The notes below the pieces were generated by a model. It searched no databases. It had not been told where the DNA came from and worked only from the letters and a program-made list of their open reading frames with translations. The translations under genes were made by a program, and so were the position numbers. Below, piece by piece: positions 59,865-62,741 of a DNA stretch of 62,741 nucleotides. The stretch's first letter is position 1, and the number at the start of each line of letters is the position of its first letter. Source of the DNA: Cycloclasticus sp. symbiont of Poecilosclerida sp. M (GTDB lineage Bacteria > Pseudomonadota > Gammaproteobacteria > Methylococcales > Cycloclasticaceae); assembly GCA_002101225.1 (NCBI GenBank), contig LWTN01000241.1, positions 1 through 62,741 on the forward strand, given 5' to 3'.

Positions 59865-61598
59865 GTGAGCGAAACACCGAATTCAACAATAAAATATCGT
59901 GAAGCGGTCAGTCAGGACAAAAGTTTATTAGCTGATGTTCACCCTGTATTACGCCAAGTTTATTTAAACAGGGGCGTTGTTAATAAAGATCAACTTGACC
60001 GGACCTTAAAGCAGCTACCTAGTTATCAATCGCTTTCGGGTATTGATGAAGCCGTTCGGATAATTAAGGAAGCAATTCAAACCAACAAAAGAATACTCAT
60101 CGTCGCGGATTTTGACGCTGACGGCGCGACTTCCTGCGCGCTTGCCATTCGGGGCTTGAAAATGTTGGGCGCTAAGCAGGTTGATTTTGTCGTGCCGGAT
60201 CGCTTCAAATTCGGTTATGGCCTAACGCCTGAAATCGTCGATGTCGCTCTCGAATTAAAGCCAGATTTAATCATCACCGTTGATAATGGAATATCGAGCA
60301 TTGAGGGCGTAGCGCACGCGGTTGAGAAGGGTTGCCAAGTTATTGTGACCGATCACCACTTGCCTTCAAAGCAGCTGCCCAATGCCGACGCTATCGTTAA
60401 TCCACAGCTCGTAAACGATGCGTTTCCAAGTAAAGCGTTGGCCGGTGTTGGGGTGATGTTCTATGTGCTATTGGCGCTGCGAGCAAAACTAAACGAAGAC
60501 GGTGTTTATGAAAACAGTGTGCCACCTAATTTGGCTCAACTGTTAGATATCGTTGCGCTAGGCACGGTGGCAGACGTTGTGCCGTTAGATGAAACAAATC
60601 GTAAGCTCGTACACCAAGGTTTGCTTAGAATTCAAACTAAAAACTGTGTACCCGGTATTAGTGCTTTATTACGTATTGCAAAACGGGAACCTGAACGGAT
60701 TGTTGCGAGTGATTTAGGGTTTGCAGTCGGCCCACGGTTGAACGCTGCTGGGCGTATGGATGATATGTCGCTAGGCATTCAATGTCTGCTAACCGATAAC
60801 GAACAAGAAGCGGCAGCAATTGCAGAAAAGCTTGATTTGTTAAATTTGGAGCGTCGTGCGGTTGAGGATGATATGAAGCGAGATGCTTATAAAATCCTAG
60901 AATCGTTCGATGTTAAAAAGGCTAATCAACAATGGGGCGTTAGCTTATTTGATGAACGCTGGCATCAAGGTGTTATTGGTATTTTAGCGTCACGAATAAA
61001 AGAAAAGCTCAATAGGCCCGTTATTGCCTTTGCAAAGGCAGGTAAAGGTGAAGTAAAAGGCTCGGCCCGCTCAATTACAGGTTTGCACATACGCGATACG
61101 CTAGATGATGTTGCGAGTTTAAACCCTGGCTTACTTAAAAAATTTGGTGGCCACGCGATGGCTGCAGGAATGAGTTTGCTTGAAAGCGATTTAGAGCGTT
61201 TTACTGAGGCGTTTAATGAAGCGGTTAAAAGCCGTCTCAATAACCAAGCGCCAGAAAATGTATTCCTAGTTGATGGAGAAATTCCCGATAACGATATCAA
61301 CTTAAATTTGGCCGAAACCATAAGGCAAGGCGGCCCATGGGGGCAAGGCTTTCCTGAGCCACTTTTTGTCGGTGCGTTCAACGTCAAAAAGGCACGTATT
61401 GTCGGCCAAAATCACGTCAAGTTAGAATTAGAAACACAAACAAAAAGAAAGCTAGATGCTATCTATTTTAATGTCGATAACCCCGATAGCGTAATCGGAT
61501 TAGCAAAAGTAACATTGGTTTATCAGTTAGATGTAAACACCTATCTGGGGTGTTCTAGTGTGCAATTAATGGTTAGGTATTTGGAGGCATTGGAGTAA
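59865..61598 (+). CDS. recJ: Single-stranded-DNA-specific exonuclease RecJ
   Basis: The 577-residue 5'-to-3' exonuclease acts in recombination and mismatch repair. The DHH domain has LIVADFDADGATSCALAIRG, IITVDNGISSIEGVAHAVEK, VIVTDHHLPSKQLPNADAIV and the DHHA1 part VKGSARSITGLHIRDTLDDV with KKFGGHAMAAGMSLLE. The OB domain follows. The start is GTG nine bases after thrC, and the length is that of E. coli (577). It is the last housekeeping gene before the integron-like array. Confidence 0.98.
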   Translation: MSETPNSTIKYREAVSQDKSLLADVHPVLRQVYLNRGVVNKDQLDRTLKQLPSYQSLSGIDEAVRIIKEAIQTNKRILIVADFDADGATSCALAIRGLKMLGAKQVDFVVPDRFKFGYGLTPEIVDVALELKPDLIITVDNGISSIEGVAHAVEKGCQVIVTDHHLPSKQLPNADAIVNPQLVNDAFPSKALAGVGVMFYVLLALRAKLNEDGVYENSVPPNLAQLLDIVALGTVADVVPLDETNRKLVHQGLLRIQTKNCVPGISALLRIAKREPERIVASDLGFAVGPRLNAAGRMDDMSLGIQCLLTDNEQEAAAIAEKLDLLNLERRAVEDDMKRDAYKILESFDVKKANQQWGVSLFDERWHQGVIGILASRIKEKLNRPVIAFAKAGKGEVKGSARSITGLHIRDTLDDVASLNPGLLKKFGGHAMAAGMSLLESDLERFTEAFNEAVKSRLNNQAPENVFLVDGEIPDNDINLNLAETIRQGGPWGQGFPEPLFVGAFNVKKARIVGQNHVKLELETQTKRKLDAIYFNVDNPDSVIGLAKVTLVYQLDVNTYLGCSSVQLMVRYLEALE

Positions 61599-62042
61599 CT
61601 AAGTTGCAAAGGCCTTTATCCATGATTAGTATGTCAATATCATAATACATGGAAGTGTAATCCATATATGTACAATTAATACGTGGAACACTGCTTCCGC
61701 TTATTAACACTGTTAGTACTCTAAATTTTCCTTAGTTACCATCCTACAAAGTATCGGCAAATAGAGAACCTTTACCGTGTTCTTGTTCGTGGCATATTCT
61801 GACCATTCAATGGTATTTGAAACGGTTGGGCAAGTAGTAACTGGGCTAAAATGTTGTAACGCTGTTATCTAATGTGTTTTAGAAAAATAGTACTTGCAAA
61901 ACATGCTTTGTTAGACAAACTTAGTGTCAAAAATATTGAAAGTAACGGGCATTAAGAAACCAAGCCCAGTTACAGCAAAGAGCATTTAAAAGAAGCGGAG
62001 CGTAGCACTTGTTGTGTTTACAAACATTAGGTTGCATCGACG
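61599..62042. other. Gene-poor stretch between recJ and the first attC
   Basis: No frame of 60 codons or more and no recognisable protein is seen. It contains an imperfect palindrome near 61618-61652 (TCCATG ... CATGGA) and an exact 11-bp inverted repeat, GTAACTGGGCT at 61837-61847 and AGCCCAGTTAC at 61962-61972. The piece ends at the left half of an attC site, so the part next to it may be a non-coding or decayed cassette. No attI, integrase or strong promoter is recognised. Confidence 0.6.
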
Positions 62043-62172
62043 CACTAACAAAACGGTCAACCTGACCGCCTAACGCAAGTTAATTTAACAAAAACCTGAT
62101 GATTTTGAATGTTAGGTGTATTTATGCTATTTTTAGTGTATCAGTCGGCGGCAGGTTACCTCGGCGTTAGCC
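62043..62172 (+). other. Integron attC site 1 (VCR-like, about 130 bp)
   Basis: The left simple site has CTAAC (62045-62049) and AACCTGACCGCC; the right simple site has GGCGGCAGGTT and GTTAGCC (62166-62172). The two inner boxes pair exactly except for one extra A in the left one, the extrahelical base that sets strand choice in attC sites. The spacers are nine and eight bases. The middle contains TTTTAGTGT as in Vibrio cholerae repeats. Recombination would occur between G62166 and T62167. The orientation is the same as attC 2. Confidence 0.85.
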
Positions 62173-62616
62173 ACCACAAACATGCTACGGAGTAGAATTA
62201 TGAGTTTAAGCGATAAAATTGATGATTGGAAAATGTACCCTAATGCACTTGGCTCAGAATCCCAAGTAGCAGTGATTGTGGGGGAAGTATCTGTAGTACT
62301 TGAAGAAGAAATACCAAAGCATGTAAAGGAAGCATTAAAAACGTTATCACTTCGAGGGACAATGAGAGACATTGCTAAAGCGATAGCTTCTAATGAAGAG
62401 CCAGAACAACACAATATGGGAGTCCCTTCTTTTCATGATGTCGTCGATGCAGCAGGAGCCTCTTGTTGTATTTCATGGGCAGAAGCACTGTCAATATTAA
62501 CAATTTATCTCGAAGAACGCAGGGCTAAAATTGGCTAACAAAAGCATCCAGCGGACAGTTAAAAGCGGCATTTCGCTCCGCTACATTCTGCTTTTAACTG
62601 CCGCTGATGCTGGCCG
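62167..62616 (+). mobile_element. Integron gene cassette, complete, 450 bp
   Basis: The unit is bounded by the G/TT cleavage points of attC 1 and attC 2 and contains one gene followed by its own attC. Such cassettes are excised and inserted by an IntI tyrosine recombinase, which is not present in this window. The start of an identical cassette follows at 62617. Confidence 0.85.
62200..62538 (+). CDS. Cassette-encoded protein of unknown function
   Basis: The 112-residue protein is not recognised. It starts at ATG 62200 with GGAG seven bases upstream (an ATG at 62182 lies before that site). It is acidic and probably cytoplasmic: SLSDKIDDWKMYPNALGSES, QVAVIVGEVSVVLEEEIPKH, LKTLSLRGTMRDIAKAIASN, then a His/Pro-containing loop and SCCISWAEALSILTIYLEER with two adjacent cysteines. 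No membrane segment, signal peptide or catalytic motif is obvious. The TAA stop lies within the CTAAC core of attC 2, the usual compact cassette layout. Toxin-antitoxin or other accessory roles are possible but unsupported. Confidence 0.75.
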   Translation: MSLSDKIDDWKMYPNALGSESQVAVIVGEVSVVLEEEIPKHVKEALKTLSLRGTMRDIAKAIASNEEPEQHNMGVPSFHDVVDAAGASCCISWAEALSILTIYLEERRAKIG

Positions 62617-62622
62617 TTAGCC
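62533..62622 (+). other. Integron attC site 2 (about 90 bp)
   Basis: Outer boxes GGCTAAC (62533-62539) and GTTAGCC (62616-62622) are exact complements. The inner arms GCATCCAGCGGACAGTTAAA and the complement of TTTAACTGCCGCTGATGC pair with two extra bases on the left arm, as required for extrahelical bases. The loop includes CATTTCGCTCCGC. Because the extra bases lie on the left side, the cassette gene is read left to right. Confidence 0.92.
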
Positions 62623-62741
62623 ACCACAAACATGCTACGGAGTAGAATTATGAGTTTAAGCGATAAAATTGATGATTGGAAAATGTACCCTAATGCACTT
62701 GGCTCAGAATCCCAAGTAGCAGTGATTGTGGGGGAAGTATC
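62617..62741 (+). mobile_element. Start of a second, identical cassette (cut by the window edge)
   Basis: The 125 bases from the cleavage point to the window end equal 62167-62291 without mismatch. It may be a tandem copy of the cassette, or the reading of a circular form, or the end of an assembly path (see findings). Confidence 0.7.
62650..62741 (+). CDS. Second copy of the cassette protein, N-terminal part only
   Basis: The first 30 codons are identical to those of the gene at 62200, with the same GGAG ribosome site. The gene is cut by the window edge, so nothing beyond can be said. Confidence 0.65.
   Translation, partial: MSLSDKIDDWKMYPNALGSESQVAVIVGEV

Follow-up and report, generated by a model that had tools for sequence, protein, structure and literature searches.

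How an integron cassette array comes to lie directly behind a housekeeping gene, on a contig without an integron integrase gene (intI), is the question raised by the 62,741-nucleotide stretch of DNA analysed here (the window). It is a complete contig (LWTN01000241.1, here C241) of the 2.32-Mb draft genome, in 244 contigs, of Cycloclasticus sp. symbiont of Poecilosclerida sp. M. The initial annotation described two attC sites next to recJ, with neither intI nor attI, and considered either a cluster of attC sites lacking an integrase (CALIN) or an integrase encoded elsewhere in the genome. We found that the array consists of an orphan attI, a copy of the genome's own attI without a neighbouring intI, and two cassettes, the first without an open reading frame (ORF). 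Very probably, this array is an outpost of a distributed integron, in which one integrase serves orphan attI sites in trans.

An attC pattern scan was too strict and then too noisy, and covariance models were used instead. The model applied to the window was trained on eight attC sites, all taken from Cycloclasticus genomes other than this one, and it ranked attC2 first (59.2 bits, E value of 8 × 10−13) and attC1 second (28.6 bits, 7 × 10−5) within the 62.7 kb, the third match reaching only 15.6 bits (0.18). Thus, the two attC sites in the same orientation were confirmed, together with the extra left-arm bases that had been described for them, and the compact gene between them indeed stops inside an attC, its TAA codon falling within the R box of attC2. 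The suggested folding of the bottom strands supported attC2, which folds far better than shuffled sequences (z of −6.8), and failed to do so for attC1 (z of −0.4), a long site with an open, unpaired middle whose L arms pair, leaving two extra bases. Hence, the R and L boxes, extra bases and single-strand fold of integron attC sites are present here, the fold of attC1 alone not exceeding shuffles. With two attC sites and no intI on the 62.7-kb contig, the array corresponds to a CALIN as usually delimited (at least two attC sites, no neighbouring intI).

The earlier statement that no attI is present was wrong, since one starts 17 bp past the recJ stop codon. In a BLAST search of the own genome, positions 61620-61716 matched five other places, and one of these, on contig C218, sits between the intI start codon and the first cassette and therefore occupies the attI position. 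The recJ attI matches this intI-proximal attI at 85 to 95% and the consensus of the genome's copies at 90% over the core, and it was recovered by a hidden Markov model with an E value of 3.5 × 10−21. It carries the repeats TCCATG (61619), ACATGGA (61647), ATCCAT (61660) and ACGTGGA (61681) and the core CTTATTAACACTGTTAG. The aligned copies begin with TTATCCATGTTT and end at the crossover CTG^TTA, and their flanks are unrelated. A second IntI cut site at a left-edge core (ATG^TTTGGC), which would make attI itself a cassette, was considered but is not supported, because bases further left are also conserved. The roughly 440 bases behind recJ that had been called gene-poor do lack an ORF, but they begin with attI, and the remainder is accordingly cassette 1, for which the plus-strand ORF list holds none of at least 50 amino acids.

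The integrase was found on C218, in agreement with the earlier suggestion that it might lie elsewhere in the genome. It is full length, scores 444.9 bits against TIGR02249 (cut-off of 265) over positions 1-315, as the only protein of the genome above the cut-off, and can be aligned throughout to VchIntIA (PDB 2a3v, E value of 5 × 10−93). At the level of the genome, C218 thus holds a complete integron, having an intact integrase with the additional domain, attI directly before intI and attC-bearing cassettes behind. The description of the recJ locus as an attC cluster lacking an integrase is therefore right for the absence of a local intI and incomplete in that an orphan attI, copied from that of the genome itself, stands at the head of the cluster.

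Next to this attI on C218, the genome has further copies of about 100 bp elsewhere, one of them behind recJ. In the mechanism that we propose, IntI would act in trans and insert circular cassettes at the orphan sites by attC × attI recombination, as it does beside its own gene, and several short arrays would grow without a local integrase. This putative action of IntI on orphan attI is suggested by identical cassettes at different attI: contigs C217 and C220 have the same first cassette (357 bp, 100% identical) behind two attI with unrelated left flanks, and one cassette stands behind sites of both attI types in genome G011 (96% over 193 bp).

The distribution of attI was then assessed in 18 Cycloclasticus genomes, in which 72 attI copies or fragments were mapped. 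Nearly all members of the genus carry one to eight copies, belonging to two sequence types, A and B, that track two integrase types. In the own genome (G000) there are eight at separate loci (six of type A and two of type B) rather than a single, intI-adjacent attI. Of the 18 genomes, 15 contain type A, which is absent from all 43 genomes of other families of the same order. This type directly precedes the integrase of the own genome and four others that share an identity of about 80% or more with it, while four integrases at 63 to 70% identity are preceded by type B, which has the same length and layout as A and repeats that have changed jointly (TCCATG to TCCCTG and CATGGA to CAGGGA). The type-B sites are dispersed too, including the two in the own genome. 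These data make it highly improbable that this repeat has nothing to do with integrons, being some dispersed element or regulatory motif that chance placed upstream of intI: dispersed repeats of about 100 bp are common in bacteria, but this one lies immediately before intI in the examined genomes of types A and B, stops precisely at the G^TT crossover, from which cassette sequence follows, changes together with the type of integrase and is accompanied by attC arrays on its right side only.

The position of the attC sites pointed in the same direction. The attC model gave 77 matches over 44 loci, 76 of them at attI-bearing loci and all of these downstream of attI on the same strand; among the matches unused in training, 64 of 64 lay downstream of and on the same strand as attI-A, compared with 25% expected. 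Insertion of cassettes by IntI at ordinary chromosomal GTT sites (attG) has been described (cited in PMC12444791) and requires only a short target. As an origin of the recJ array, with the likeness to attI being incidental, we consider it extremely improbable, given those 64 downstream matches and an attI match of about 100 bp that includes all accessory repeats, far beyond a short attG target. The attI match contradicts this origin at recJ; it may hold for the attC matches at C243:13778, C228:87, C172:1939 and C221:27753 of the own genome, which have no detectable type-A or type-B attI on the same stretch and are candidates for attG insertion, for a third type of attI or for loss of the attI.

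The anchoring of the array after the housekeeping gene recJ, as first described, turned out to be one case of a genus-wide pattern in which orphan attI lie behind host genes. With the nine intI-linked sites left out, the upstream gene is co-directional with the orphan attI in 49 of 59 copies and at 33 of 43 independent loci (p of 6 × 10−4), at a median gap of 70 bp. Cassettes could thus be transcribed by read-through from the host gene, and at recJ, where a scan of 61400-62741 revealed no sigma-70-like promoter and no terminator, read-through would be the simplest route of expression. G011 has an attI at the corresponding position, 16 bp past the recJ stop codon; G005 has a type-B site 452 bp behind recJ, and no attI was found behind recJ in G007, G012 and most of the other genomes. 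The left junction of this locus is known, and both in G000 and in G011 the contig breaks off within the array; the region downstream of moeB varies between species and gave no empty-site comparison. In one orthologous pair from two species (G001 C55 and G015 1409623), the attI sites are 97% alike, and the nearest neighbour of an attI lay in the same genome in 18 of 52 cases versus 3.9 in shuffles (maximum of 16). Both old, fixed attI loci and lineage-specific spread are present.

Loss of intI from a complete integron behind recJ, leaving attI and cassettes, would explain the array along the lines on which CALINs have been proposed to be degraded integrons (PMC9024848), and two attI types per genome would fit several former integrases. 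We consider this unlikely, since the 17-bp gap between recJ and attI holds no remnant of intI, as is also the case in G011, and since intI would have to have been lost cleanly, and up to the identical edge of attI, at each of some 40 independent loci. A Pseudomonadales metagenome-assembled genome (MAG), JARGPR (G061), speaks against it as well: its integrase is 79% identical, and its approximately 14 attI-A copies, up to 94% identical, have only the unit of about 100 bp in common, the flanks being unrelated. We therefore favour, with considerable confidence, the view that the CALINs of these genomes are cassette arrays that grew on duplicated attI and not degraded integrons. Because those copies share nothing outside attI, the attI may itself be mobile and spread with the help of IntI, and CALINs in general may be arrays on copied attI, but we put this forward only tentatively.

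Several observations weigh against a distributed integron. Most of the genomes are fragmented MAGs, in which assembly errors could be concealed where contigs share their ends; the single-contig genomes G008 and G015 still have dispersed attI copies. No attC match was obtained at 13 of 43 attI-A loci, about half of which are cut by contig ends. Four genomes of the genus keep attI-A copies with only a B-type integrase, and orphan attI occur in G002, G007 and G016, where no strong intI is seen; some of the orphan sites may therefore be relics.

Beyond the genus, one cassette of JARGPR comes first behind three attI and also lies within three other arrays, and JAESUM and JAHJRK have three attI-A matches each. 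Integron-bearing genomes from other genera, 11 in number, served as controls, each being searched with its own attI. No dispersed copies of the own attI were detected in seven of the 11, several were found in G040 and G059 (one 100% and one 99% identical, respectively) and two in G047, one of these beyond the main array's attC sites; G050 has two attI fragments beside transposase genes and without attC matches, which are weak cases. Dispersed attI, present in three or four of these 11 genomes, are thus neither universal nor confined to Cycloclasticus. The orphan copies L238, L239 and L241 of G040 have on their left an extra module of about 45 bp (CCGATAACCTGATGGGYGGC...) that is missing from the intI-linked copy, indicating that these orphan copies derive from one another.

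The features of the recJ locus are summarized in Table 1.

Table 1. Coordinates of recJ and of the cassette array behind it in the window
Feature	Positions	Strand	Basis or remark
recJ	59865..61598	+	Pfam RecJ_OB, DHH, DHHA1; ORF; directly upstream of, and co-directional with, the orphan attI
Orphan attI, type A	61616..61715	+	Expected crossover between G61712 and T61713
Cassette 1	61713..62166	+	Bounds are the crossover points of attI and attC1
attC1 of cassette 1, 130 bp	62043..62172	+	Held-out covariance model; two extra left-arm bases
Cassette 2	62167..62616	+	Bounds are the crossover points of attC1 and attC2
Cassette 2 gene, 112 aa	62200..62538	+	ORF; TAA stop within R box of attC2
attC2 of cassette 2	62533..62622	+	Held-out covariance model; bottom-strand fold
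Start of further cassette 2 copy	62617..62741	+	Exact repeat; contig end

On its left, recJ closes a hom-thrC-recJ gene run, and on the right the array runs off the end of the contig. The window closes with 127 bases that exactly repeat 62165-62291, such that cassette 2 restarts after attC2; as this length resembles an assembly k-mer overlap, either cassette 2 is present in the array as a tandem copy, or the reads stem from its excised circle. The product of the cassette 2 gene had no significant match in Pfam, NCBIfam or PADLOC, and an Rfam search gave no match.

Other arrays and attI copies showed features of their own. The intI-linked array on C218 (L014 5062-8410) has cassettes for an ankyrin-repeat protein, a helix-turn-helix protein and a RES-domain protein that may be the toxin of a toxin-antitoxin pair. 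A defence cassette behind a partial orphan attI on C239, beside a glutathione-reductase-like gene, encodes a PvuRts1I-like restriction enzyme for modified DNA (C239:31047-31784, L019 3048-3785; PADLOC mREase_II, E value of 1 × 10−82). In single-contig G008, a 580-bp segment of the intI-linked array recurs as an exact copy 2.4 kb onward (L123, C1 near 2461978), as expected for recent integrase activity. A palindromic element, AACGGACCGCTCGCTATCGCGA..CTGTCCGTTTAA, lies directly behind attI at two loci of G012 (L102 and L113) or behind attC on C209 (L015 7690-7725), and could represent a terminator or a repeat that caps arrays; joining C209 to C192 through a 126-bp overlap was rejected, as the orientation does not fit. 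Two attI-A, at L115 4102-4230 (G004) and L119 196-329 (the recJ copy of G011), contain a related insert of about 50 bp in mid-site, with related interruptions in the type-B site L156 and the partial site on C239; the insert is possibly another small repeat that targets attI.

A standard integron typically has one attI close to the integrase gene (PMC9024848). The arrays described here resemble sedentary chromosomal integrons, such as the Vibrio cholerae superintegron, in IntI, attI architecture and attC cassettes in one orientation, and differ from them in having several unlinked attI, most behind host genes, with short arrays. As in a CALIN, the attC array has no neighbouring intI, but it has its own attI, and the genome an intact integrase. 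Xanthomonas CALINs at seven conserved chromosomal loci are likewise cassette clusters at fixed places away from intI, and in the available text of PMC12444791 they are ascribed to ancestral integron activity, with no mention there of orphan attI. The delta-attI cassettes of class 1 and 2 integrons (PMC12901181) also bring attI sequence away from its normal place, but as remnants at cassette ends within arrays, whereas here a whole attI heads its own array elsewhere. We found no report of dispersed attI in the open literature, whose coverage is incomplete.

The paired integrase and attI sequences of types A and B offer a natural data set for attI recognition. Orphan attI also provide a testable origin for CALINs, one that escapes IntegronFinder, since attI other than those of class 1 are poorly described and this program does not search for them (PMC9024848). 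For the organism, with one integrase apparently serving many attI behind host genes, captured genes could come under the control of many host promoters.
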